Both the position numbers and the translations under genes were made by a program. This document shows, piece by piece, positions 8,214-23,326 of a DNA stretch of 34,040 nt. A model generated the notes under the pieces. The model had not been told where the DNA came from. It made no database searches and saw only the letters and a list, made by a program, of their open reading frames with translations. Numbering within the stretch: position 1 is the stretch's first letter; each line of letters opens with the position of its first letter. This stretch comes from Trueperaceae bacterium (GTDB lineage: Bacteria > Deinococcota > Deinococci > Deinococcales > Trueperaceae). The stretch covers positions 15,771-49,810 of the forward strand of contig JACFNR010000006.1 in NCBI GenBank assembly GCA_019454765.1. The letters are read 5' to 3'.

Positions 8214-8288
8214 TCGGCGGTAGCTCAGCGGCAGAGCGATCGGCTGTTAACCGATTGGTCGTAGGTTCAAATCCTACCCGCCGAGCCA
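8214..8288 (+). tRNA. tRNA-Asn (anticodon GTT)
   Basis: A complete 75-nt cloverleaf with encoded CCA. Acceptor TCGGCGG pairs with CCGCCGA (U1-A72 is usual for tRNA-Asn); discriminator is G. D-stem GCTC/GAGC, anticodon stem ATCGG/CCGAT with loop CTGTTAA giving anticodon GTT, and T-arm GTAGG-TTCAAAT-CCTAC. Two stem-loops follow directly. Confidence 0.98.
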
Positions 8289-10752: not shown

Positions 10753-11679
10753 TCAGGACTCCTCGGCGGCTCGTCCCGGCAAGAGGCCGCGCAGTAGGGC
10801 GATCATGCCCAGGGCGGCGGCGAGGCCGCTGGCGTACTTCACCAGGAGGTCGGTGACTATCACCTGCACGAGCCAGGCGGGCGTTGCGAACGGTTCGCCC
10901 CAGAACGCCAACAGGGTGAAGAGCAGGGTGTCGAGCGGCGCGCTCACGGCGTTGGAGGCGGCCACGCGGGTGAGCCACCGGCGGCGCAGCAGGCGCTGGT
11001 ACACCTCCGTGTCGGCGGTCTCGGAGACGACGATGGTGAGGAACGACACGGCGACGTACCGCAGCGGCGTGCCGAGGGCCGCGGCCAGCGCGACGTTGGC
11101 GGTGGCGGCGGCGAGGATCATCAGGTAAACGGCCCGGCGCCCGTGGCGGTGCGCACGGTCGCGCTGCGTGAAGGTGAGTCCGAAGAAGAGCGTCCCGACG
11201 TTCACCAGGAAGAACCCGCCGAGGGGCAGGAACGAGTCGAGCGTGAAGTTGGCGAGGAGGGTGGCGGCCGTGTAGGTGGTGGCCGCGGCGAGGAGGCTGC
11301 GGCGGCGGTTGGCTCCCTCGCCCTCGCCGAGCCGCGCGAGGAGAGCCAGGGCGACCGCCAGGCCGACGGGAGCGAGCACGTACTCCCACCGCCCCATGCC
11401 TGCGGCGGCCAAGCCCAGCGCCGCGGCGGCCGCGATGGCGAGCAGCCGGCGAGTCGCGGTGGCGGCCCGGCCGGGGGTGGCCACAGAGCGCAGGTCGGTG
11501 GCGGCGCCGACGAAGAGGAGGCCGTAGAGGCAGATGGCGAGGAGCGGCAGTCGCGCCGTGGGGGTCGGTCCGAAGGTGGAGAACCACGCCAGCGCCGTCG
11601 GCCCGCCGCCCAGCGCGAGCCCCATCAGGGTCCCGGCCAGGGTGGGGCGGTTGGGCGGGGCGGCTCGCGGTTCGCTCAT
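10753..11679 (-). CDS. VUT-family (DUF165/YhhQ-like) membrane transporter
   Basis: A 308-residue polytopic membrane protein with about 8-9 hydrophobic segments. The C-terminal half carries the VUT signature: a conserved SETADTEVYQRLLRRRW block, then ASNAVSAPLDTLLFTLLAF and a final helix pair. Characterised relatives (YhhQ/QueT-like) import queuosine precursors; others are called vitamin uptake transporters. This protein is longer than YhhQ because of extra N-terminal helices, so its substrate is uncertain. A tgt gene, which uses such precursors, is in the same window but about 10 kb away. No ribosome-binding site is obvious; a TAGAGT box lies about 37 bases before the ATG. Confidence 0.75.
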   Translation of the reverse strand: MSEPRAAPPNRPTLAGTLMGLALGGGPTALAWFSTFGPTPTARLPLLAICLYGLLFVGAATDLRSVATPGRAATATRRLLAIAAAAALGLAAAGMGRWEYVLAPVGLAVALALLARLGEGEGANRRRSLLAAATTYTAATLLANFTLDSFLPLGGFFLVNVGTLFFGLTFTQRDRAHRHGRRAVYLMILAAATANVALAAALGTPLRYVAVSFLTIVVSETADTEVYQRLLRRRWLTRVAASNAVSAPLDTLLFTLLAFWGEPFATPAWLVQVIVTDLLVKYASGLAAALGMIALLRGLLPGRAAEES

Positions 11680-12620: not shown

Positions 12621-13131
12621 CCGCGAACCACCCCACGTCCTCCAGGGCTCCCTGGGCCGCGTCCACCGTGAAGCCCCGCCTGGCGAGGAACGCGAACGCC
12701 TTGGCGCGGGCGCGGAGCAGCTCCGGGCCCACGGCCGTGCCGGCCGCGGGGCGGTAACGCCACTCGTTCTTCCGTAGCAGCGCGGCGGCCGCGGCGCGCT
12801 GCGCGTCCGGGGTGAGGTCGCTCAGTTGCGCGTCTATGAGCGCCCGCGGCACGCCCTTGCGCGCCAGCTCGCGCCCGAGGCCGAGCCGCCCGCGCGCCGT
12901 GGCGCGCGAGTCGACGTACATGGCCGCGTAGGCCGCGTCGTCCACGAGTCGCAACTCGACCAACCGGTCGATGAGCTCGCGCGCCTGGCCCTCGGGCACC
13001 CCCCGGCGGCGCAGCTTCTCGGCGAGCTCGGCTGTCGTGTACATGCGCCGCGCCAGTATCGTCAGCAGGTAGTCCCAGGCGCGCTCGGGGCTCGGCGGTC
13101 CGTCGGCGCGCTCCCTTGGCGGTCCGGCCAT
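12610..13131 (-). CDS. recX: Regulatory protein RecX
   Basis: RecX modulates RecA filaments. The 173-residue product shows its three-helix repeats: WDYLLTILARRMYTTAELAE with KLRRRGVPEG, IDRLVELRLVDDAAYAAMYV, RELARKGVPRALIDAQL, and AKAFAFLARRGFTVDAAQGAL. The length fits the family. The ATG at 13131 shares one base with the TGA of the permease gene (TGATG), so the start is firm. No recA lies in this window; RecX here is linked to a lipoprotein-release permease instead, an uncommon pairing. Confidence 0.92.
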   Translation of the reverse strand: MAGPPRERADGPPSPERAWDYLLTILARRMYTTAELAEKLRRRGVPEGQARELIDRLVELRLVDDAAYAAMYVDSRATARGRLGLGRELARKGVPRALIDAQLSDLTPDAQRAAAAALLRKNEWRYRPAAGTAVGPELLRARAKAFAFLARRGFTVDAAQGALEDVGWFAGDD

Positions 13132-14312
13132 CAGCGCAGCACGGCCACGGGGTCGAGGCGGGCGGCGCGCCGCGCCGGCAGCAGGCCGGCGATCACGCTG
13201 GTGGCCAACGTGACGCCGCAGACCCACGTCACGTCCCACGGCTGCAACTGCACCGGCAGTTGCGTGATGAAGTAGAGGTCCCCCGGTAGCGGGTAAGGCT
13301 GGAACCGGAAGTAGGCGGCCACGCCGAGGCCGAGGAGGGCGCCGAGCAGCGTGCCTGCGCCACCCAGCAGGAAGCCCTGCAGCGTGAACGTAGCCAACAC
13401 CTGGCCCTCGGACGCCCCCAGGGCGCGCAGGATGGCGATGTCCTCGGTCTTCTCGTTGACGGTGAGCACGAGCACGTTGGTGATGCCGAAGGCCGCGACG
13501 ATCACGATGAGGAAGACGACAACGCCGATGACGGCCTTCTGCAGCCGCAGCTGCGAGATGAGACTGGCGAAGAGGCCCTCCCAGCTCAAGGGGCGAAGAG
13601 AGTACTTGCCGGCCAGGTGGAGCCCGACGGCGTGTGCCGTCGTCGGTTCCGCCAGCCGCAGGTGGTAACCAGTGACGCGCCCCTCCTCGCCCAGGTAGGC
13701 CTGCAGGTTGGCGAGGGACATGTAAGAAGTCACCGAGTCGATGAGCTCGTTGCCGACGCGGAAGGTGCCCGCCACCTCGAACTGCGCCGTGGCGCCCGAG
13801 ATGTCGCGCACCATCACGGTGTCGCCGACGACCACTCCGAGCGACAGCGCCAGCGTCGAGCCAAGCACGATCCCGCCGGCCGTGTCGAGAGCGCCGGCTT
13901 GCGCTGCCAGGACCGGCAGGTCGAGCACGGCCGTCTCCAGCGCCGTGTCGATGCCGACGATCTGGGTGAAGCCCTGCCGGGCGCTCACCCCCAGCGCCTG
14001 GCTGGCGCGCCGCGCGATGAGGGCTTGGCCGGATAGGAACGGCGCCACCGCCGTGACGCCAGGTTCGGCCCCGAGGGTCGCCAGCAGCTCGGGGTCCTCC
14101 GGCAGCGTCTCGCCCGGCATGAAGCTCTGGAGGCTGAGCATCGGGGTGGCGCGCAGGGTGCTCGTGATGAGCTCGTCGATGAAGCCGTTGGTGAGTGACA
14201 ACGCCACGATGAGAACGGCCACGCCGACCGCCACGCCGGTGACCGTGAGCACCGACTGCAGCCCGCGGCGCCGCACGTGACGCCAGGCTAGGTAGGGAAC
14301 GAGCGCCCGCAC
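13131..14312 (-). CDS. LolC/LolE-like ABC transporter permease (FtsX/MacB superfamily)
   Basis: A 393-residue inner-membrane permease. An N-terminal helix (LQSVLTVTGVAVGVAVLIVA) is followed by a large extracytoplasmic domain, about residues 45-250. Three C-terminal helices contain the FtsX core NEKTEDIAILRALGASEGQV, which contacts the ATPase, and PLPGDLYFITQLPVQL, typical of LolC/LolE. It ends in LLPARRAARLDPVAVLR. Its likely role is extraction of lipoproteins from the inner membrane or a related export task. The ATPase partner is not in the window. The GTG at 14312 sits 9 bases after the preceding gene and 6 bases after a TAAGCT box, so it may have its own leaderless transcript inside the operon. 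Confidence 0.9.
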   Translation of the reverse strand: MRALVPYLAWRHVRRRGLQSVLTVTGVAVGVAVLIVALSLTNGFIDELITSTLRATPMLSLQSFMPGETLPEDPELLATLGAEPGVTAVAPFLSGQALIARRASQALGVSARQGFTQIVGIDTALETAVLDLPVLAAQAGALDTAGGIVLGSTLALSLGVVVGDTVMVRDISGATAQFEVAGTFRVGNELIDSVTSYMSLANLQAYLGEEGRVTGYHLRLAEPTTAHAVGLHLAGKYSLRPLSWEGLFASLISQLRLQKAVIGVVVFLIVIVAAFGITNVLVLTVNEKTEDIAILRALGASEGQVLATFTLQGFLLGGAGTLLGALLGLGVAAYFRFQPYPLPGDLYFITQLPVQLQPWDVTWVCGVTLATSVIAGLLPARRAARLDPVAVLR

Positions 14313-14318
14313 GCGGCG

Positions 14319-14324
14319 AGCTTA
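14319..14324 (-). promoter_or_regulatory. Leaderless-type -10 box TAAGCT overlapping the upstream stop codon
   Basis: The TAA stop of the 3D-domain gene is the first half of TAAGCT. Six bases later comes the GTG of the permease gene: an internal promoter built into a stop codon. Confidence 0.45.
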
Positions 14325-14957
14325 GCGCGCGGCCAGCAGGATGGGCGCCGCCTCGAAACCGGAGGCGAGCGCGGGGAGCAGCTCGGGGCCGTGGCGGCCG
14401 TAACGGACGAGCTCCACCTCGACCTTGCGCACGCCCCAGGTCACCGCCTGCGAGTACGACTCGAACCAGACGTCCACCTGCTGCGACTTGCGGGAGTGCA
14501 TGGTGTCCTCGACGATGAAGAGTTGGTCGTCGAGCAGGGCCTGGAACGCGCCGACGCCGCGGCCGGTGTGGTAGTTGCCGAGGTCCCGGAGCCGGACGAG
14601 CGAACCGTACGGCAGGTCGGAGCCGAGCAGGTCGCGGCTCACGGCCATGATCCCGAAACGGGTCCGCACGCCCGTGGCGGTGATGAACGGCGTGGCGTCG
14701 GTCTGACTCGCGTGGGAGTTGTAGCCAGTGGCCCGCAACACGAAGACCGGGTTGGCGGTCGGGCCTTGCACTGGGGGCGTGGCGGGAGAGCTGCCGCGCA
14801 TGGCGAGGACTTCGGCGCGCGGTTCGATGCTGAGTTCGACGGGCGTTGGCGCCCCGGTGGGTTCGACCTCGTCGACGCGCGGCGCGCTGAAGGCCGTGAT
14901 GAGAGCGGAGATCACCAGCCCGAGGGCGATGAGCTTGCCGCTGATGTGCAGAGCCAT
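14322..14957 (-). CDS. Exported 3D-domain (double-psi barrel) protein, cell-wall associated
   Basis: A 211-residue protein with an N-terminal membrane anchor or signal (SGKLIALGLVISALITAFSA), a Pro/Glu linker, then a 3D domain. The domain includes VLRATGYNSHASQTD, FGIMAVSRDLLGSDLPYGS, VEDTMHSRKSQQVDVWF and VRKVEVELVRYG. The DTM...VD acidic residues are those that name the 3D family (MltA/YabE-type barrel), usually peptidoglycan-cleaving or stationary-phase surface proteins. The ATG at 14957 follows GGGAGGTG with 4-base spacing. It is divergent from the glycosyltransferase/lytic transglycosylase fusion and heads the permease-recX chain. Confidence 0.85.
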   Translation of the reverse strand: MALHISGKLIALGLVISALITAFSAPRVDEVEPTGAPTPVELSIEPRAEVLAMRGSSPATPPVQGPTANPVFVLRATGYNSHASQTDATPFITATGVRTRFGIMAVSRDLLGSDLPYGSLVRLRDLGNYHTGRGVGAFQALLDDQLFIVEDTMHSRKSQQVDVWFESYSQAVTWGVRKVEVELVRYGRHGPELLPALASGFEAAPILLAAR

Positions 14958-14977
14958 CTGCACCTCCCAGTCGCGGC

Positions 14978-14983
14978 ATCTTA
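14978..14983 (-). promoter_or_regulatory. Extended -10 promoter of the 3D-domain gene
   Basis: Minus strand TGC-TAAGAT, about 14 nt of leader, then GGGAGGTG and ATG at 14957. This gene thus uses a conventional leader, unlike many neighbours. Confidence 0.5.
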
Positions 14984-15127
14984 GCAGACGAAGTGTGAGA
15001 GTTCGCACATGTTGAGCACGGTGAAGGTGAACGCCCCTTAACCGGCCCGTCGCGCCCGCAGCGCCCGCGGGTGTCGGCCGGAGGCGCCGGTCGAGGTCCC
15101 CGCCCCGGTAACGTTGCTGGACGAAGG

Positions 15128-15149
15128 CTGACAGAAACTCGTCAGTTTT
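15128..15149 (+). promoter_or_regulatory. Small inverted repeat with T-run upstream of the glycosyltransferase fusion
   Basis: CTGAC-N8-GTCAG-TTTT in a locally A/T-rich patch (15128-15170) between two divergent genes. It is more plausibly an operator or promoter element than a terminator, since no gene reads into it. Confidence 0.3.
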
Positions 15150-15183
15150 CGCGTGATATAGCAAGACCGAGGAACCGATCCCC

Positions 15184-18129
15184 GTGCCCTTCATCCCCGG
15201 ACTACTCGCCACCCCCACCGTGATAGCCAACGCGCTGTTCAGCCTGGCCAGGGACGCGTCGCTGCCCGTCCTCGGTCCCGACCGCGTCGGCGTGATAGCG
15301 CCCATGTTCAACGAGGAGCTCGGGGCCGCCTCCGCGCTCGCCTCGTTGCTCGAGCAGACCACCCCCTTCGACGAGCTCGTCGTCAGCATCAACGGCGGCA
15401 CCGACGACACCGGCGGCGTCGTGAGACGGACCCTCACGGAGCACGGCTACCGGCTCGTACATCAAGGGCACGTGCCCGCCGCGACCGCCACGTTCGAGCG
15501 GTGGCTCCTCACGGGCGGGCCGACGGTCGCGGTGGTGGACCACGCGCTGCCGCTCTCCAAGTCAGACAGCATCAACGCCGCGCTCGAGGGCGGTCTGCTC
15601 AACACCGACCGCGTCCTCGTCGTGGACGGCGACACCGTCCTCGACCCGGGCTTCCTGAGCGGCCTGAGGCGTCACTTCTACCGCCTCAGGCGCAGGGGTC
15701 GTGGCGCTGCCACGCTCTACGTGCTCGAGGACTACGCCATCCAATCGGGCTCGGTCATGTCGGCGCCACCCGTTGACGGCAGGCCGATGGCGAGCCTCAT
15801 CCACAACGCCCGCGCCGCCGAGTACGCCATCTCGACGGTCTTGCGGCTCGGCCAGACGACCCGGCTCGGGGACGGGGCCGTCTTCGGGCGTTCCCGCCTG
15901 TACACCGTCGTGGGCTGCGGCTTCACGGCGCGGCGCCAGTGCTTCCCCATGCCCTCCGACACGCTCACCGAGGACCACGACTTCACGCTCGCCGTGCAGA
16001 ACGAGCCCCTCGCCGCGGAGCCGGTCACGGGCGCCGAGCTGGCCGAGCGGGGCTTCCGTGTGGTGGTGGACGGCGAGGAGCTGCCCCTGGACGCCGTCAC
16101 CGGCGATCACCCCGTGGTGTTGCGCCGGGGCGGCGACGCCAGGTTCGTCAGCGACGCCCTCATGTACACCGACGACCCACCCACCCTACCTGGCTACCTG
16201 CGCCAGATCGAGCGCTGGAACGGCGGTGGGGTCGAGAACGCCCTCAAGCGCCTGTTCGTGCGTCCCGTCTGGCGCGGCCTGCACGGCAACGTGCGCTTCA
16301 CCCTGCTGGCCGCTCAGTTCGAGAACCTCCTCGGCCTCCTCCTGCTCCTCCTCATGCTGCCCCTCGCGTTGGGGCTCAACTTCGCGTTGCCCGGTCACGG
16401 CACGCCCCTGAGGGGCATGCTCGTCTGGCTGGGCGTGGACCTGCTGGCCACGGGCCTGCTCACCACGCTCGGCTTCTGGCGGCAGGGGCGCGGGCTCGGC
16501 CGGTCGGGCGCGCCGCTGCAGCGGTGGATGTGGCGCCGCATCCCCGGCTCCGTCCTAGCGCTCGGCCTGTTGCGCGTCTTCAACGCCGTCACGTTCGTCA
16601 CCGGTGCGCTCCGCGCCACCGCGCGCTTCGTGGGGCGCAAGGAGGTCGACCCTCGCGCCACCATCACGTGGGTGCGCCCGCGAGCGGGCACGGCCAAGCG
16701 CACGCAAGCCAGGTTCCTCGGGGCCTCCGGCGGCCTGATGTCCTTCGCCGTCGGCATCTTCGGGCTCACCGCCTGGATCGCCGGCGACTCCAGACCCGGC
16801 TACCGCGACACGTGGCGCCTCATCAACGAGTCCGTTCCCGTGCTGCAGTCGCAGCACCAGCAGCTGCCCCTCCCCCTCGCCGGCAGCAGCGTGCTGGGCC
16901 TGGTGCCTGACGCAGGCCTCACGGCCGATGCCGCGACCCCCATGAAGGACGCAGCCGGCGGCGGCGTACCGGCAGCGGACGGTGCGCCCGCCACGGGCGG
17001 TGCGCCCGCCACGGGCGCCGACAGCCACGCCGACACCCGCCCCGACGCGGCGGTCGCCACCACCGGTACCGCCGAGGGCGCCGCCGATGGCATCGGCGAC
17101 GGCATCGGGGCCGTGGTCGGCGCCGTGGTGGCCACGCTGGGTGCCGACGCGGGCCCCGCGGACGGGGCGGGGGAAGCCGCCAGCGCGGCCGGGGCAGCGG
17201 ACGCCGTCGTAGCCCACACACGCGCCGTCACCGGACCGGTGGCCGCGCTCCCGCCCGGGACCGAACTGCTCGGGTCGGCGCAGGCCGCCCTCGGCCTGAA
17301 GGTCGTCACGACCGGCACGGGACGCCACGGCGTGTCGGCGTTCTGCAGCGTCGCGGACGTGGCGCGACCGGCCGACCGACCGCGGCTCCTCGCCGGCCCC
17401 GCCGACGAGTACGAGCCCCTGTCGAGCTGGGGTCTGCTCGTGCTGGCGCGCCTGGCGCCGCTCGTCGCCAACATCGAGGAGGCGGCGACCGCCTACGACG
17501 TGCCCGCCGACCTCGTGCTGAGAGTGCTGCTCAACGAGTCGTACCTCGACCCGCTGGCGGTCGGACCGACGGGGGACCTCGGGCTGTCGCAGGTGACCAG
17601 CGACGCGTTGACGCTGTTGAGGGCGATCTCCACGGACGCCCTGTCGCCCTTCGCGAACGGCCGCTTCTTCGCCGGCGACTTCTCGGTGTTCGACCCCGAC
17701 TTCTCCGTGTGCGCCGGCGCCGCCAAGCTGGCCTGGGCGCGCGCCCAGCCGGGAGGCGCCGACGAGCGGTTCGCTTACGCGCGCTACATCAACCCGTTGG
17801 CGGGCGTCGTGCGCGGCAAGATCAGCCCGCGTCACCAGGAGCTCGTCGAGGCCATCGGCGACCTGAGGCCGCTGGCTGCCGCGCTGGAGCGGACGATCGC
17901 CGCCTACCGCCGTGACCCGCAGTCGGTGACCGACAAGGAGCGCGCCCTGCTCGGCGTCACCACCCTCGTCGCCGACGGCACGCTCACGGTCGGTCAGGCA
18001 TACTTCGTCACGGCGGAGCTGGTGCAGAGCTTCGGGATCGACGACCGCGACCTGTACGACGCCGTGCGACACCGGCTTTACGGCGAGGCCGCGCAGCCGC
18101 CGAGCGATGGCGGGGGCGGCGTCGGTTGA
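15184..18129 (+). CDS. Fusion protein: GT2 glycosyltransferase + membrane helices + lytic-transglycosylase-like domain
   Basis: A 981-residue protein. Residues 33-350 form a processive-type GT2 domain: VIAPMFNEE, VVDGD (Asp148/150, nucleotide-sugar/metal), TEDHD (262-266, base) and QIERW (341-345). A non-canonical insert of about 50 residues lies between the last two motifs. Hydrophobic segments follow near 374-402, 411-431, 454-482 (possibly interfacial) and 514-534. A low-complexity Ala/Gly linker spans 575-690. Residues 750-890 resemble SLT lytic transglycosylases: VPADLVLRVLLNESYLDP (Glu785) and VGPTGDLGLSQV. One polypeptide could therefore polymerise a glycan and, if the C-terminus is extracytoplasmic, cut or bind peptidoglycan. 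The GTG at 15184 follows GAGGAA. The stop is 18 bases from the convergent dehydrogenase gene. Confidence 0.85.
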   Translation: MPFIPGLLATPTVIANALFSLARDASLPVLGPDRVGVIAPMFNEELGAASALASLLEQTTPFDELVVSINGGTDDTGGVVRRTLTEHGYRLVHQGHVPAATATFERWLLTGGPTVAVVDHALPLSKSDSINAALEGGLLNTDRVLVVDGDTVLDPGFLSGLRRHFYRLRRRGRGAATLYVLEDYAIQSGSVMSAPPVDGRPMASLIHNARAAEYAISTVLRLGQTTRLGDGAVFGRSRLYTVVGCGFTARRQCFPMPSDTLTEDHDFTLAVQNEPLAAEPVTGAELAERGFRVVVDGEELPLDAVTGDHPVVLRRGGDARFVSDALMYTDDPPTLPGYLRQIERWNGGGVENALKRLFVRPVWRGLHGNVRFTLLAAQFENLLGLLLLLLMLPLALGLNFALPGHGTPLRGMLVWLGVDLLATGLLTTLGFWRQGRGLGRSGAPLQRWMWRRIPGSVLALGLLRVFNAVTFVTGALRATARFVGRKEVDPRATITWVRPRAGTAKRTQARFLGASGGLMSFAVGIFGLTAWIAGDSRPGYRDTWRLINESVPVLQSQHQQLPLPLAGSSVLGLVPDAGLTADAATPMKDAAGGGVPAADGAPATGGAPATGADSHADTRPDAAVATTGTAEGAADGIGDGIGAVVGAVVATLGADAGPADGAGEAASAAGAADAVVAHTRAVTGPVAALPPGTELLGSAQAALGLKVVTTGTGRHGVSAFCSVADVARPADRPRLLAGPADEYEPLSSWGLLVLARLAPLVANIEEAATAYDVPADLVLRVLLNESYLDPLAVGPTGDLGLSQVTSDALTLLRAISTDALSPFANGRFFAGDFSVFDPDFSVCAGAAKLAWARAQPGGADERFAYARYINPLAGVVRGKISPRHQELVEAIGDLRPLAAALERTIAAYRRDPQSVTDKERALLGVTTLVADGTLTVGQAYFVTAELVQSFGIDDRDLYDAVRHRLYGEAAQPPSDGGGGVG
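16981..17016 (+). repeat. Two tandem 18-bp repeats in the linker of the fusion gene
   Basis: GGTGCGCCCGCCACGGGC occurs twice back to back (16981-16998 and 16999-17016), encoding Gly-Ala-Pro-Ala-Thr-Gly units in the linker between the membrane helices and the C-terminal domain. Confidence 0.9.
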
Positions 18130-18147
18130 CGCGCGGCGGCGGGTGGA

Positions 18148-19476
18148 CTACTCGGCCGGCGCCTCCCGCAGGCGCGCCAGCGTGCCGTCGACGGTGAGGA
18201 GCAGCACCTCGCCCTGGGGTCCGGCGACGATGGCCAGCATGGCCCCCGCCCGCTCGAGCAGCGGTCGCACCTCGCCGGTGGCCCTGTCGAGGGCCCAGAG
18301 CCGTCCCGAGATGAAGTCGCCGAAGAGGTAGGCCCCCCGCAGGGACGGTAGCTCCCTGTCGGTGACCTCCACGCCGCCGACCACCGACTTGCCGCCGGCC
18401 TCGTCGGTACCGGGGTGCCCGTAGTAGGCGATGGGCGCCACGGTTGCCAGCGCCTCGCAGTCGCCGGCGACGAGGGTGCCGTCCTCGGGGTGGTGGAAGC
18501 ACTCGGGCCCCTCGCGGACGGGCCAACCGTAGTTGGCGCCCGCCGCCACCAGGTCGATCTCCTCCCAGCGGTCCTCGCCCACGTCGGCGAGGAGCAACGC
18601 GCCGTCCGAGGGCGCGAAGGTGAACTTCCACGGGTTGCGGAAGCCGTAGGCCCAGACCTCGCCGCGCGCGCCCGCGGCGGCGGCCGCCGCGTTCGTGGCC
18701 GGCGTGAACGGGTTATCGGACGGCACCGCGTACGGTGCGGCGCTGCCCTGGGGGAACGGGTCGAGACGCAGGACCTTGCCGCGCAGCGAGCTCAGGTCCT
18801 GCGCCGCGTGCGGGCGGTCATACAGGTAGGCGGGGTCCTGCTGGCCGTCGCCTATGCTCACGTAGAGCATGCCGTCCGGTCCGAAGGCCACCTGGCCGCC
18901 GTGATGGAACGGTTGCGGCATCGGTTGGCGCAGGAGCACCACCTCGCCCTCCCCGTCGGCTCCGTCTAGGTCCGGCAGGAGCGGGTAGGCGGCGACGACG
19001 AGGTCGTTCGTGCCCGCCTCCGTGAACGCCGCGACGAGATGCGCCGGCCCGCCTCGCGCCGCCGCTCGCTCCCGCGGCTCGAGGGCGACGGAGAACAGGC
19101 CTTGCTCGCCCAGCAGCCCGGTCACGCGCCCGGCGAGCGACAGGAACGGGTCGGGTTCCACCCGTCCGTCCTGGTAGCGGAAGACCGAGCCGTCCAGGGC
19201 GACGACGAGCAGGGCCCCCGTGTCGTAGAGCGGTACCGCGGCCACGGGGAGCCGCAGGCCGGTGGCGAGCACCTCGAGGCGGTAGCCCGGGGGGCTCGGC
19301 GGGACCGCGGGCGGAGCCTGTTGGGCGGCGCCGGTGGACGAAAGGGCCGCCGCGAGGACCGTCAGGGCCACGACGAGGAGGGTCGCCGAGAGGCGCCGGG
19401 CGCCGGTGGGGCGGTGGTCGGGTGAGCGAGGCCGCTTTCGGGGGTGGCGGGCGGGGGGCCGCTGGGCGAGGTTCAT
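18148..19476 (-). CDS. PQQ-dependent sugar dehydrogenase-like protein (soluble aldose dehydrogenase family)
   Basis: A 442-residue exported protein. A basic N-terminus and hydrophobic stretch (LSATLLVVALTVLAAALSS) end near GAAQQ, a likely signal peptide. The six-bladed propeller is of the sGDH/Asd/HHIP type: LRLPVAAVPLYDTGALLVV, EQGLFSVALEP, FHHGGQVAFGPDGMLYVSIG (catalytic His area), WAYGFRNPWKFTF, WEEIDLVAAGANYGWP and GAYLFGDF. It should oxidise an aldose in the periplasm with PQQ, if that cofactor is available; no pqq genes are in the window. Its ATG overlaps the TGA of the upstream GH26-like gene (ATGA), so the two are co-translated. Confidence 0.9.
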   Translation of the reverse strand: MNLAQRPPARHPRKRPRSPDHRPTGARRLSATLLVVALTVLAAALSSTGAAQQAPPAVPPSPPGYRLEVLATGLRLPVAAVPLYDTGALLVVALDGSVFRYQDGRVEPDPFLSLAGRVTGLLGEQGLFSVALEPRERAAARGGPAHLVAAFTEAGTNDLVVAAYPLLPDLDGADGEGEVVLLRQPMPQPFHHGGQVAFGPDGMLYVSIGDGQQDPAYLYDRPHAAQDLSSLRGKVLRLDPFPQGSAAPYAVPSDNPFTPATNAAAAAAGARGEVWAYGFRNPWKFTFAPSDGALLLADVGEDRWEEIDLVAAGANYGWPVREGPECFHHPEDGTLVAGDCEALATVAPIAYYGHPGTDEAGGKSVVGGVEVTDRELPSLRGAYLFGDFISGRLWALDRATGEVRPLLERAGAMLAIVAGPQGEVLLLTVDGTLARLREAPAE

Positions 19477-20507
19477 CGCCCGGCGATGTTACTCCTTGCG
19501 GGCGCGGTACTCGCAAGCGAGGCCGCGCCGAGCCCGCGTCGTGCCCCGGCGGCCTCGAAGTAGTTCCGGAACGCCTCCAGGGAGTCCGTGGAGCTCTCTA
19601 TGCGCCAGTCGGTCTCCTTGTCCTCGTTGAACCAGACGAGCGCTTCGACGCGGGGGAAGGCCGTGGAACGGAGCATGTCCTCGATCCAATCGGCCTTGTC
19701 GCCGCCTGATTCGGCCGAGGCGATCTCGGCGAGCCACACGGCCTGGGGTCCCACGCGGGAGATGCGGCGGTACCCCTCGGCGAAGACCTGCTCGAAGCTG
19801 CGCCAGCCGATGTACGGCTTCACGTCGCCCCAGTTGTAGCCGTCGAGGCCGAGGACGTCGACGTAGTCGTGACCCGGGTAGTAGAGCTCCATCGCGTTGG
19901 CGGCGGTGCGCGGCTCGTCGGTCACGTTGGGCGTGAACACCCACCGGACGTTGGTGGCGCCCTCCCGCCTGAAGAGGTCGACGACGTGGCGCCAGGCGGC
20001 CCGCAGCGTGGCGGGGTCGCCGCTCCACGGCGTCCAGTCGCCGTTCATCTCGGGGAAGATGCGCACGTACACGACGCCGGCCGCGCCCCTGACGCCTCGC
20101 GCCCACGCGGCGATGTAAGCGTCGTGGCGGCCCGCCACGATGTCGGGCAGGGTCTGCGTGTGCGCCTGCCAGGTGACGAGGGGGATACGCCCATGCTCGA
20201 GGACGTCGTCGACCGGGACGGGGTCGTAGGGGGTGTCCCACGAGGCGTACCAGTGAGCCAGGACGAACTCGCCCCCCAGTCGCTGTTCGAGCGCCTTGAA
20301 CGGGCCCAGGTCGTTCCACACGCCGGACGGGATGAACGCGCCCACCAGCGGCGGCGTGTGCGGGAGGTCGGCGGCGCGGTCGGTCGGCGCGGAGCAGGCG
20401 GGGACGACGAGGAGCGCCGCCAACGCCAGCAGCGCGGGGAGGGCCCACGACGACCGGGGTCGCGCGGGGCGCGTGCGCGTGGCGGGGGGAGGGAACGGTT
20501 GCGTCAT
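19473..20507 (-). CDS. GH26-like glycoside hydrolase lipoprotein (copy 1)
   Basis: A 344-residue lipoprotein. The N-terminal basic/hydrophobic region ends in the lipobox LVVPAC (Cys38). The remainder is a (beta/alpha)8 barrel of GH26 type: PLVGAFIPSGVWND, HWYASWDTP, VRIFPEMNGDWTPW with the candidate acid/base Glu, GATNVRWVFTPNVTD, YVDVLGLDGYNWGD, and VWLAEIASAESGG with the candidate nucleophile Glu. In characterised GH26 mannanases a His precedes the acid/base Glu; here it is Pro, so the substrate may not be mannan. It is closely related to the gene at 20625-21620 (tandem duplication). It overlaps the dehydrogenase gene by 4 bases. The start has no clear ribosome-binding site. Confidence 0.85.
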   Translation of the reverse strand: MTQPFPPPATRTRPARPRSSWALPALLALAALLVVPACSAPTDRAADLPHTPPLVGAFIPSGVWNDLGPFKALEQRLGGEFVLAHWYASWDTPYDPVPVDDVLEHGRIPLVTWQAHTQTLPDIVAGRHDAYIAAWARGVRGAAGVVYVRIFPEMNGDWTPWSGDPATLRAAWRHVVDLFRREGATNVRWVFTPNVTDEPRTAANAMELYYPGHDYVDVLGLDGYNWGDVKPYIGWRSFEQVFAEGYRRISRVGPQAVWLAEIASAESGGDKADWIEDMLRSTAFPRVEALVWFNEDKETDWRIESSTDSLEAFRNYFEAAGARRGLGAASLASTAPARSNIAGR

Positions 20508-20554
20508 GGCGTCCGGGCTGCGGACGTGGTCGGTCCGCTGTGAGTTTCCTCACG

Positions 20555-20584
20555 AACGTAACACCCTCGGGGTGGCGCGCTCAA
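20555..20584 (-). promoter_or_regulatory. Candidate promoter of GH26-like copy 1 and the dehydrogenase gene
   Basis: On the minus strand TTGAGC (20579-20584), an 18-base spacer, then TACGTT (20555-20560), about 48 bases before the ATG. It would let copy 1 be transcribed independently of the riboswitch-controlled copy 2. Confidence 0.45.
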
Positions 20585-20624
20585 CACCCGGCGCGGACGG
20601 TTAAGGCGTCGCTTCGCGCGACCG

Positions 20625-21620
20625 TCAGCGGGCGTCGGCGAGGACGATGCCCGCGGCCAAGGACTCGCGGAACGCCTGCAGCGTGGCGGGGTCGGAGTCG
20701 ATGCGCCAGTCGGCTTCCTTCTCCTCGTTGAACCAGATCAGGGCCTCGATGCGGTCGAAGCCGGTGGTGGCGAACATGTCGCGGACCCAGTCGCTCTTGT
20801 CGCCCCCCTCGTCGGCGCTGGCGAACTCGGCGATCCAGACGGGTTGGTCACCCAGCGCGGTGACTCGGTCGTAACCGCCGCGGAACACCGTCTCGAACGA
20901 GCGCCAGCCCACGCTCGGCAGCGCGTCGCCCCAGTTGTAACCGTCGAGGGCGAGCACGTCCACGTAGTCGTCGCCCGGGTAGTAGAGCTCCATCGCATTG
21001 CCCGGCGTCCGGGGTGAGTCGGTCACGTTGGGGCTGAACACCCAGCGGACGTTGGTGGCACCCTCCTCGCGGAAGAGCGTCACCAGCCGGCGCCAGGCCG
21101 CGCGGAGGGTGGCGGGGTCGCCGTTCCACGGCGTCCAGTCGCCGTTCATCTCCGGGAACGGTCGCACGTATAGGAGGCCGGGCGCCGTGGCGGCCCCCCG
21201 GGCCCACTCCCGGATGTAGTCGTCGTAAGCGCCGGCGGCGATGTCGGCGTTGGACTGGTTGTGGCTCTGCCAGCTGATCATTGGCCTACGGCCGCCCTGC
21301 GAGGCGAGCGCGACGAGTTCCGGGAAGTACGGGTTCTCCCAGTTGGTGAACCAGTGCACGACGTCGAGGCGCCTGCCGATGTTGAGCTCGAGCTGCAAGA
21401 TGGGGTCGATCCCCTGCCACACCCCGCCGAACGTGAAGGCGCCGAACAGCGCCGTGGACTCGAGGCTGCTCTCGGTGGGCTGCGGCACGTCGCGCTCAGT
21501 ATGTGCCGGGGCGGTGCCGCAGGCGCTGAGGAGCAGGGCCACGCTCAGGGCGGCCGCGGCCCGCAGGTCGACGCGCCGGCGCCCGCGGCGCCCCTCATCG
21601 TGCACTTGCAGTCTCGCCAT
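20625..21620 (-). CDS. GH26-like glycoside hydrolase lipoprotein (copy 2, riboswitch-controlled)
   Basis: A 331-residue lipoprotein: basic start, hydrophobic helix AAAALSVALLLSAC with the lipid-carrying Cys34, then a GH26-type barrel. Matching blocks to copy 1 include VRPFPEMNGDWTPW, GATNVRWVFSPNVTD, YVDVLALDGYNWGD and VWIAEFASADEGGDKSDW, giving the same candidate catalytic Glu pair and the same His-to-Pro change. I chose the ATG at 21620 because GGGG lies 6 bases upstream; an ATG at 21626 would add two residues. Its leader of about 325 nt carries tandem c-di-GMP-II aptamers and a hairpin over the start site, so expression should answer to cyclic di-GMP. The product probably trims an extracellular or cell-wall glycan. 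Confidence 0.85.
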   Translation of the reverse strand: MARLQVHDEGRRGRRRVDLRAAAALSVALLLSACGTAPAHTERDVPQPTESSLESTALFGAFTFGGVWQGIDPILQLELNIGRRLDVVHWFTNWENPYFPELVALASQGGRRPMISWQSHNQSNADIAAGAYDDYIREWARGAATAPGLLYVRPFPEMNGDWTPWNGDPATLRAAWRRLVTLFREEGATNVRWVFSPNVTDSPRTPGNAMELYYPGDDYVDVLALDGYNWGDALPSVGWRSFETVFRGGYDRVTALGDQPVWIAEFASADEGGDKSDWVRDMFATTGFDRIEALIWFNEEKEADWRIDSDPATLQAFRESLAAGIVLADAR

Positions 21621-21626
21621 GCGCAT

Positions 21627-21661
21627 CCCCGGACCCTCGGGTCCCGGGGCGCTCGCCCGGC
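21627..21661 (-). promoter_or_regulatory. Expression platform: two mutually exclusive hairpins over the GH26 start
   Basis: Hairpin B (21627-21649) pairs CCCCGG(G)ACCC with GGGTCCGGGG, burying the ribosome-binding site next to the ATGs at 21626 and 21620. Hairpin A (21644-21661) pairs CCGGGC with GCC(C)CGG and uses the same CCCCGG strand, so A and B cannot coexist. There is no T-run, so control is probably translational. Confidence 0.6.
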
Positions 21662-21683
21662 TTCACCGCGTGACGGTGCCTCC

Positions 21684-21755
21684 CTTGGCCGGTTGCGCTA
21701 CTAGCTCCATCTGTTCCAAGCGCCCAAATGCAGAACAGACTTCATCGCTGCCAAG
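21684..21755 (-). promoter_or_regulatory. c-di-GMP-II riboswitch aptamer, downstream copy
   Basis: Read on the minus strand it starts CTTGGCAGCGATGAAG and ends AGTAGCGCAACCGGCCAAG. P1 is CTTGGC/GCCAAG; an inner stem is TCTGTTC/GAACAGA; the loop TTTGGGCGCTTG can pair its GCGCT with the later AGCGC as a pseudoknot. This layout and the wording 'GGGC-CTTG ... AGTAG-GCAACCG.CC' are those of the class II cyclic-di-GMP riboswitch, with the clostridial GCACU/AGUGC pairing replaced by GCGCT/AGCGC, a compensatory change. Confidence 0.87.
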
Positions 21756-21756
21756 T

Positions 21757-21774
21757 GGGGTCCTCGAGGACCCC
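21757..21774. repeat. 18-bp palindromic hairpin directly 5' of the downstream aptamer
   Basis: GGGGTCCTCGAGGACCCC is a perfect palindrome one base before P1 of the aptamer (minus-strand sense). The upstream aptamer also has a hairpin one base before its P1 (21927-21943), so each unit is hairpin plus aptamer. Confidence 0.8.
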
Positions 21775-21775
21775 T

Positions 21776-21853
21776 GCCCGAACGGTTCGGGCTGCGGGCC
21801 ATGTGGGACCCGCGCTCGGACTCTGACGGCTAAGTGGATGAGGGGAGACTCAT
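21776..21853 (-). promoter_or_regulatory. Hairpin-rich spacer between the two aptamers
   Basis: Three more stem-loops sit here: 21776-21792 (GCCCGAA/TTCGGGC, 3-nt loop), 21794-21813 (GCGGG/CCCGC) and 21837-21854 (GATGAG/CTCATC). The last overlaps the final base of the upstream aptamer's P1 and could compete with it. None has a T-run. Confidence 0.5.
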
Positions 21854-21925
21854 CTTGGCCGGTTGCGCTACTCGCTCCGCCTGCCTCAAGCGCCCATATA
21901 CGAGACAGGTTTCTCAGCGTCCAAG
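21854..21925 (-). promoter_or_regulatory. c-di-GMP-II riboswitch aptamer, upstream copy
   Basis: The 72-nt first-transcribed copy is about 75% identical to the downstream one. P1 is CTTGG/CCAAG. The inner stem is CCTGTCTC/GAGGCAGG with one mismatch, different bases but the same stem as the other copy. The loop ATGGGCGCTTG and the 3' AGTAGCGCAACCGGCCAAG are unchanged. Differences fall mainly in stems, while the ligand-pocket and pseudoknot segments are kept. Confidence 0.85.
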
Positions 21926-21951
21926 CAGAGAGACGGACTCTCTAAGCGCAG

Positions 21952-21960
21952 AGTGTAGCA
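21952..21960 (-). promoter_or_regulatory. Extended -10 promoter of the riboswitch leader
   Basis: The minus strand reads TGC-TACACT. Transcription would begin near 21945, exactly at the first hairpin (AGAGAG-N5-CTCTCT, 21927-21943). The -35 region is poor, which an extended -10 can offset. Confidence 0.5.
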
Positions 21961-22033: not shown

Positions 22034-23326
22034 ATGACACACTCACGACGACCACGGCCTCAGGCCGCTCCAACCGCAGAGCCGGCGCGCGCCGACGCGG
22101 GCGCGCCCTTCCGCTTCGAGATCACCGGCGAGCTCGGCCCCGCCCGCGTGGGTCGCCTGACGACCGCGCACGGCACGGTGGCCACCCCGGCGTTCGTGGC
22201 CGTCGGCACGCAGGCGAGCGTCAAGAGCCTGAGCCCCGACGCCGTGGCGGCGGCCGGCACGCAGCTCCTCTTCGCCAACACCTACCACCTCTACCTGCGG
22301 CCGGGTGCGGACCTGGTGGCGGCGCACGGTGGCCTGCACAGGTTCATGCGTTGGGACGGCCCCATCCTGACCGACTCCGGCGGCTTCCAGGTCTTCTCGC
22401 TGGGCGCCGGGGTGGAGCACGGCGTCGGCAAGATCGGCAGCATCTTCCCTGGCGAGGACGGGCGCGGCGCGAAGCGGCGCCTCAGCCCGGGCAGCGGTCT
22501 CGTCAAGGTCGACGAGGACGGCGCCTGGTTCAAGAGCCACGTCGACGGGTCGCGCCACCGCTTCGACCCGGAGAGATCGATAGCGGTCCAGCGCATGCTC
22601 GGCGCCGACATCGTCCTGGCGTTCGACGAGTGCACCAGCCCCCTGCACGACGAGGCGTACACGCGCGCGTCGATGGCGCGCACGCACAGGTGGGCGCGGC
22701 GCAGCCTGGCGGCCTTCCGGGACGGGAAGGCGCTGCACGGGTACGACCAGGCCATCTACGGCATCGTGCAGGGCGGCGCCTTCCGGGACCAGCGCGAGGA
22801 GAGCGCCGCCGAGATCGGGGCGATGGGGTTCGACGGCGTGGCGGTGGGCGGCAACCTAGGCGCCACGCGCGCCGACATGTACGCCGTGCTCGACTGGACC
22901 CTGCCGCTCCTGCCTGCGGGCCTGCCGCGGCACCTGCTAGGCATCGGCGACGTGCCGAGCATCTTCGAGGCGGTGGCGCGCGGCATCGACACCTTCGACT
23001 GCGTCATGCCGACCCGCAACGCCCGCACCGGCACGCTGCTCGTGCGACCCGAGGCGGGCGGGAGCGGCGGCAGCCGCCTCAACATCCTGAACGCGCGCTT
23101 CCGGGAGGACCTCGGTCCCATCGAGCAAGGCTGCGACTGCTACGCCTGCCGCACGTTCACGCGCGCCTACGTCAGGCACCTCTTCAAGGCGGGCGAGGCG
23201 CTCGGACCGCAACTCGCCACCGTCCACAACCTGCGCTTCATGGCGCGGCTCATGGCCGACATCAGGGCGGCGTTGATGGACGGGACGTTCCAGGCGCTGC
23301 GGCGTCGGCTCGCGCCGCCAGGTTAG
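22034..23326 (+). CDS. tgt: Queuine/preQ1 tRNA-guanine transglycosylase
   Basis: Tgt swaps guanine-34 of GUN-anticodon tRNAs (including the tRNA-Asn encoded here) for the queuosine precursor. The 430-residue product is slightly longer than usual because of a polar 25-residue N-terminus before FRFEITGELGPARVG. Signature parts: GTQASVKSLSPD, ADIVLAFDECTSP, the substrate loop DSGGFQVFSLG (general acid Asp), the nucleophile region RGIDTFDCVMPTRNARTG, and the zinc site CDCYACRTFTRAYVRHL. The ATG at 22034 lacks a good ribosome-binding site. Its TAG overlaps the stop of the convergent secreted-protein gene. Confidence 0.96.
   Translation: MTHSRRPRPQAAPTAEPARADAGAPFRFEITGELGPARVGRLTTAHGTVATPAFVAVGTQASVKSLSPDAVAAAGTQLLFANTYHLYLRPGADLVAAHGGLHRFMRWDGPILTDSGGFQVFSLGAGVEHGVGKIGSIFPGEDGRGAKRRLSPGSGLVKVDEDGAWFKSHVDGSRHRFDPERSIAVQRMLGADIVLAFDECTSPLHDEAYTRASMARTHRWARRSLAAFRDGKALHGYDQAIYGIVQGGAFRDQREESAAEIGAMGFDGVAVGGNLGATRADMYAVLDWTLPLLPAGLPRHLLGIGDVPSIFEAVARGIDTFDCVMPTRNARTGTLLVRPEAGGSGGSRLNILNARFREDLGPIEQGCDCYACRTFTRAYVRHLFKAGEALGPQLATVHNLRFMARLMADIRAALMDGTFQALRRRLAPPG

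Follow-up and report, generated by a model that had tools for sequence, protein, structure and literature searches.

A tandem c-di-GMP-II riboswitch precedes an operon encoding two GH26 lipoproteins in a genome of the little-studied Trueperaceae, and GH26 is linked across the family to a gene in which a processive-type glycosyltransferase (GT2) is fused to a C-terminal lytic transglycosylase (SLT) domain. The locus was analysed within a stretch of 34,040 nucleotides, referred to here as the window. In the reading we prefer, to which we assign a probability of about one half, the neighbouring synthase makes a glycan, perhaps a beta-glucan, whose trimming or release is repressed by c-di-GMP; both the substrate and the sign of control are predicted. 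The unit is riboswitch-GH26(-GH26-GSDH) plus GT2-SLT, where GSDH is a sugar dehydrogenase, and not the entire stretch 14322-21960.

Genes of the module

The GH26a-GH26b-GSDH operon lies on the minus strand and converges with the plus-strand GT2-SLT gene, leaving a gap of 18 bases. GH26a (20625..21626, minus strand, with the start at 21626 or 21620) and GH26b (19473..20507, minus strand), the second copy in the operon, both exceed the cut-off for PF02156 (37.8 and 44 bits, respectively) and both have lipobox-type signal peptides in their sequences. GSDH (18148..19476, minus strand) is an exported glucose/sorbosone dehydrogenase-type protein of the PQQ family (PF07995, E 1.4e-31); its reading frame overlaps that of GH26b by 4 bases, which is consistent with one operon. 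GT2-SLT is encoded by one frame (15184..18129, plus strand) with matches to PF13632, PF00535 and PF01464 above cut-off. All four frames are backed by codon-position G+C, and close homologues of GH26a are present in Trueperaceae, Truepera sp. and Deinococcales MAG records. An earlier note on this DNA had named two GH26-like lipoproteins, a PQQ-type sugar dehydrogenase and a GT2/transglycosylase fusion, all of which are borne out.

The two lipoproteins share 53% identity in the GH26 alignment. The best PDB sequence match of GH26a is CtLic26A, the lichenase of Clostridium thermocellum (E 2.8e-50, 36% identity), and the AlphaFold model of GH26a (mean pLDDT 82) gave a Foldseek match to the same enzyme with a TM-score of 0.91 at 1.7 Å, the others among the GH26 structures listed reaching at most 0.69 (target-length TM). 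GH26a is thus predicted from its model to be lichenase-like, with CtLic26A as the best fold match and the activity likewise a prediction. Two Glu residues of CtLic26A, which we take from the literature on that enzyme to be its catalytic pair, have aligned counterparts in GH26; E159 is invariant in 21/21 aligned rows and E267 is conserved in at least 90%. In the alignment the His that precedes the acid/base Glu in CtLic26A is absent from both window copies, which have Pro instead, so activity and substrate may differ from those of CtLic26A.

GT2-SLT is a single continuous frame in 16/16 aligned sequences, that of the window included. Residues D148, D150, T262-E263-D264, Q341xxR344W345, C721, E785, Q803 and C843 are invariant in all 16, such that the DxD, TED and QxxRW motifs of processive GT2 enzymes are all present, and long helices are predicted at 368-484 and 505-535. 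The SLT profile (PF01464) scores 29.5 bits against a cut-off of 21.3, with the catalytic Glu (E785) and the Gln of GLxQ (Q803) in place. The best Foldseek matches of the GT2-SLT model, a weak one (mean pLDDT 67), are hyaluronan, chitin and cellulose synthases, with E values of ~1e-10 and TM-scores of ~0.5 or less. A PDB search with the GT2-SLT profile gave no match at 1e-3, and the SLT part alone matched only MltC (E 0.35). In a phylum-wide search the SLT part of GT2-SLT was found in 23/111 genomes, all 23 of them Trueperaceae.

Tandem riboswitch leader

The leader of the operon holds two c-di-GMP-II aptamers, both of full length (model positions 1-84) and both above the RF01786 gathering score of 53.5: aptamer 1 at 21848..21931 (minus strand; 72.1 bits, E 1.6e-14) and aptamer 2 at 21678..21761 (minus strand; 78.5 bits, E 2.3e-16). 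The c-di-GMP riboswitch that the earlier note had placed before the distal lipoprotein gene is therefore real, but consists of two aptamers and not one. Just 5' of the leader is an extended -10-like box, TGCTACACT (21952..21960, minus strand), a candidate recognised from its sequence only; on visual inspection, most tandem GH26 leaders have a similar box upstream. A 5' hairpin (21927..21943, minus strand) abuts P1 of aptamer 1, and RNAalifold predicted four pairs for it from 13 leaders, three with two-sided changes. Between the aptamers lies a palindrome, GCCCGAACCGTTCGGGC (21776..21792, minus strand), which has no T run and is highly conserved in the alignment of tandem GH26 leaders, 13 of which were alignable. 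The putative anti-aptamer element, CGAGCGCCC (21647..21655, minus strand), is complementary to the aptamer loop GGGCGCUUG, and the CCCC adjoining it is able to base-pair with the GGGG that precedes the start codon.

Linkage of GH26 and GT2-SLT in the Trueperaceae

The aptamer search covered 39 family genomes; the GH26 search covered all of them but G003 and G006, which gives n = 37. At a presence threshold of E<1e-20, GH26 was found in 20/37 genomes and GT2-SLT in 23/37, with both in all 20; three genomes have GT2-SLT without GH26, and presence/absence agrees in 34/37 (Fisher p 1.1e-7, uncorrected for relatedness in a set of genomes that are related, not independent, with many fragmented assemblies). 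Genome G002 was scored as GH26-absent because its match (E 7e-15) fell short of the threshold, and GH26 was not seen in G008 because the contig ends just past the aptamer. The earlier note had taken gene order in relatives as the check on its proposal and unrelated loci as its refutation. The outcome was the opposite of that refutation: in 17/20 genomes GH26 lies on the same contig as GT2-SLT, the two being on different contigs in G007, G024 and G025. Three orientations occur, with GT2-SLT convergent in most genomes, divergent in G027 and, in G004 and G008, upstream and in the same direction.

The congeners G019-G022 keep the entire block, from the GH26 pair through RecX, and G018 has it divided between two contigs; the block also occurs, with a single GH26, in G010 and G026, which belong to other genera. 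TGT, ProC, LolC and RecX are equally conserved in the window genus, G010 and G026, as would be expected if GH26, GSDH and GT2-SLT were neighbours by descent without a common function. We consider this improbable, as the GH26/GT2-SLT pair is kept without the block in G004, G013, G014, G017 and G023, in other contexts and orientations, without GSDH and with different flanks (some of these contigs are short), and in view of the 34/37 match in presence and absence. The persistence of the adjacency through rearrangement argues for a shared function, and the linkage of GH26 with GT2-SLT is well supported. GSDH adjoins the pair in 11/17 cases and is therefore an optional partner.

A shared function with the synthase would not be needed if the GH26 lipoproteins digested environmental beta-glucan, with c-di-GMP as a lifestyle switch and GT2-SLT unrelated. 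CtLic26A comes from a cellulolytic clostridium and degrades plant glucan, and both this kinship and the exported dehydrogenase in the operon would fit such foraging, which is nevertheless improbable given the tight co-occurrence of GH26 with the synthase and the fact that profile search revealed no carbohydrate-binding module in either GH26 protein. The preferred reading, in which hydrolases and synthase act on one glycan, retains part of the coupling of synthesis and degradation that the earlier note had proposed: a glycan synthase does accompany predicted glycan-cutting lipoproteins under a c-di-GMP riboswitch. Riboswitch control would span the hydrolase operon and not the synthase, since GT2-SLT is encoded on the other strand from the GH26 operon and its gene has no aptamer of its own.

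Neighbouring genes

The whole-window block was rejected as a single system since the housekeeping flanks separate from the GH26/GT2-SLT pair in several genera. The genes for the 3D protein, the LolC-like permease, RecX, TGT and ProC are linked to the pair only in the window genus, G010 and G026; they are tied to it within the ancestral block alone, and the claim that all genes of the stretch form one system falls. The candidate 3D-domain-like exported protein (~14322..14957, minus strand) is a neighbour outside the unit. Its listed ORF (14322-15437) extends too far, into the divergent GT2 gene, the likely start being near 14957. No 3D domain (PF06725) was found at E<=1 in the window protein, whereas 2/5 orthologues gave matches (E 0.01 and 0.07) below the 23.8-bit cut-off, and YuiC was the sole PDB match at E<=1 (E 0.84). 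The designation '3D-domain' wall protein is therefore plausible but unproven.

No PqqE was found above cut-off in the genome from which the window comes (hereafter the own genome), despite the PQQ-family dehydrogenase in the operon; PQQ uptake from outside could be an alternative supply. A LolC/E-like lipoprotein-release permease (13131-14312) lies beside the module in the ancestral block, with RecX also beyond the 3D candidate. Queuosine genes occur near a Q-type tRNA in the same window: tRNA-Asn, which is a Q tRNA, is encoded at 8214-8288 (anticodon GTT) and TGT at 22034-23326, and a match to a queuosine-precursor transporter (10753-11679) is weak and below cut-off.

The c-di-GMP-II regulon

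The c-di-GMP-II aptamer was found in 33/39 family genomes, with 166 matches in total. The 150 matches listed were grouped into 119 clusters (L151-L269), all of which were taken, the other 16 matches being left out; a downstream gene was called in 109/119 clusters and 10 gave no gene. The longest-ORF rule served as a fallback where the G+C-based caller gave none, chiefly in low-GC genomes. Among the matches listed, 97/109 downstream genes encode export signals compared with 72/269 background ORFs (lipobox 70 and other export signals 27 of 109, compared with 17 and 55 of 269), the background including a few target genes and having a differently bounded upstream extension. It is well supported that the aptamers mark a family-wide regulon of exported proteins.

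Pfam assigned the 109 downstream proteins (again among the matches listed) to the overlapping families GH26 (15), beta-helix (10), subtilase (9), Pel9A-like (8), pentapeptide (7), Big_7 (5), GH99 (3), GH114 (2) and pilin-type N_methyl (2), and BLAST grouping of the same set gave a GH26 group of 19 members in 18 genomes. The largest BLAST target group (22 proteins) proved to be chained and was not accepted as one family. Tandem aptamers, with a spacing of <=400 bases, precede 14/19 GH26 clusters and 11/90 others among the matches listed.

The own genome, of 2.91 Mb, has seven aptamers above cut-off at five places, while the search for c-di-GMP-I aptamers found no match in it or in any control genome. 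The other four places are before a GH114 lipoprotein, an operon of an Agd3-like deacetylase with a PelF-type glycosyltransferase, a beta-helix lipoprotein and an Ig-domain lipoprotein. Twelve GGDEF matches in this genome suggest that c-di-GMP can be made, and no PilZ match was found in it (the control was positive in 5/14 genomes); the riboswitches may thus be its main c-di-GMP readers.

A Pel-like locus was observed in this context (L089, L115, L092; C4:62158-77804 in the own genome). It encodes a PelF-type glycosyltransferase above the NCBIfam cut-off and two Agd3-like proteins, one of which has a sub-threshold score for the Pfam deacetylase domain. Riboswitches stand before the GH114 lipoprotein and the deacetylase operon, which are convergent as in the window. 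PelG was not found in the own genome, so the locus is incomplete or divergent.

Putative anti-aptamer pairing and predicted sign of the switch

The element CGAGCGCCC is conserved before the start codon and complements the invariant aptamer loop GGGCGCUUG. When complementarity was scored over 14 representative leaders, no other 9-nt window of the aptamer in the test reached the mean z of GGGCGCUUG (2.39), for which the pooled Fisher p is 2e-9, a value that assumes an independence which related leaders lack. In the register of GGGCGCUUG with CGAGCGCCC, for which aptamer 2 was used, 90.6% of cells pair in 13 leaders, compared with 32.5-59.0% when the register is slid by 1-3 columns. Compatible changes in the anti-aptamer helix are all one-sided, with no double changes, because the aptamer side never varies. 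Significance was confined to the pooled, position-specific test: complementarity of single leaders to the whole aptamer reached p<=0.05 in 10/99 leaders and in 2/19 for GH26 and was mostly not significant. In G014 and G017 the element is a poor one, as it is in G009 under the gapless-run test. The conserved complementarity suggests an anti-aptamer switch.

In 14/18 GH26 leaders, enforcing the aptamer made the ribosome site costlier to open than enforcing the anti-aptamer helix did (median +4.7 kcal/mol), the exceptions being G019, G021, G022 (slightly) and G023; with only P1 penalised the effect was smaller and mixed. The result in the 14 leaders favours OFF with c-di-GMP, which is the more likely, predicted sign for the GH26 leader. 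With the opposite sign, c-di-GMP would raise GH26, which would trim or release nascent chains. BcsZ, CcsZ and PssZ are cellulase-type partners of this kind in cellulose-type systems, and the known c-di-GMP/synthase/hydrolase operons run in such a synthesis-assisting mode. The parallel with these operons, the energy test of the G023 leader, which points to ON, and the short leaders of the same regulon described below lend this sign some credit, yet OFF is favoured in 14/18 GH26 leaders and the SD-pairing strand is overlapped by the anti-aptamer element, and we regard ON control of GH26 as rather unlikely.

OFF control by an anti-aptamer strand may extend beyond GH26. In four beta-helix leaders (L154, L208, L219, L220), GGTTGCATC is the exact complement of GATGCAACC in the leader's own aptamer, and these leaders apparently follow the same anti-aptamer logic in other letters. 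In the same lipoprotein leaders GGTTGCATCC can pair either with GATGCAACC or with the GGATGC region that holds the start codon, an arrangement that constitutes a putative compact OFF switch. A cruder test on 80 targets included 26 leaders whose start comes within 20 bases; six have the SD inside aptamer helices (predicted OFF), nine favour its release with the aptamer folded (predicted ON) and the others point clearly neither way, so ON switches probably exist in the Trueperaceae. The leaders appear to fall into classes with the SD inside P1 (in low-GC genomes), with the SD just after P1, and with long anti-aptamer stretches.

Proposed mechanism

From these observations we infer a glycan substrate, a sign of control and a physiological role for the module. 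GT2-SLT would sit in the membrane as a synthase and both polymerise and extrude a linear glycan of the cell surface, which may be a beta-glucan; its extracytoplasmic SLT domain would perhaps open the peptidoglycan or process the chain. This glycan would be cut outside the inner membrane, where the two GH26 lipoproteins would be anchored, and the two-aptamer 5' leader would control GH26a-GH26b-GSDH. In the absence of ligand CGAGCGCCC would pair with the pseudoknot loop of the aptamer, leaving the ribosome site free; when c-di-GMP holds the aptamer folded, CGAGCGCCC would instead bind the GGGG ahead of the start codon and turn translation off. The glycan would then remain uncut at high c-di-GMP, and falling c-di-GMP would release the hydrolases, giving a dispersal or remodelling switch whose response the two aptamers would sharpen.

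A broader picture, which we put forward only tentatively, is that the Trueperaceae regulon acts almost only on exported proteins, with anti-aptamer leaders shutting off matrix-cutting lipoproteins (GH26, GH114 and beta-helix) at high c-di-GMP and short leaders switching other secreted proteins on. c-di-GMP would in this way build and protect a matrix, including a previously undescribed GT2-SLT glycan, that dissolves as c-di-GMP falls. If true, biofilm-matrix turnover would be under the direct control of RNA sensors, in a phylum whose c-di-GMP output is little known and in a genome without a detectable PilZ protein. The module would also offer a concrete model of how the expression platform of a c-di-GMP-II riboswitch works, and a synthase-hydrolase pair for probing a new surface glycan.

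Comparison with known systems

Synthase/hydrolase pairs under c-di-GMP are known, namely BcsA-BcsZ, CcsA-CcsZ and PssA-PssZ, and the module resembles them in that a synthase gene adjoins that of a glycoside hydrolase. It differs in its hydrolase family, in the control by a tandem riboswitch and in that no PilZ domain was found in the genome. CtLic26A is the closest solved relative of GH26a in both sequence and fold, with both catalytic Glu residues aligned, but the window GH26 proteins are lipoproteins in a synthase-linked operon and have Pro for His before the acid/base Glu.

Synthesis of mixed-linkage beta-glucan by BgsBA of Sinorhizobium/Rhizobium is described as activated by c-di-GMP (PMC9495663), and RiGT2 of Romboutsia is described as making mixed-linkage glucan (PMC10374906). 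According to these accounts, both share with GT2-SLT a processive GT2 with the D,D,D,QXXRW motifs; they also offer a product cut by lichenase and, for BgsA, a link to c-di-GMP (PMC9495663, PMC10374906). In the BgsBA account, however, c-di-GMP acts on the synthase protein BgsA (PMC9495663), whereas in the window it is the hydrolase operon on which an RNA would act, and the synthase is fused to an SLT domain. Judged by term counts, the RiGT2 paper mentions neither GH26 nor a riboswitch (PMC10374906).

Tandem c-di-GMP-II riboswitches have been reported as 59 doublets and 9 triplets, mostly at a Paraclostridium surface-anchor gene (PMC9481103), and tandem c-di-GMP riboswitches are reported to be enriched in the Deinococcota (PMC12452182), for which the COG table of the latter study gives no target. 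GH26, GT2-SLT and the anti-aptamer element belong to the present locus and were not found in the accounts of these two studies (PMC9481103, PMC12452182), nor did we find a publication in the open-access literature searched that describes the GH26/GT2-SLT module. The comparison points to an RNA-controlled build-and-trim system of which the general kind is known and the parts are new.
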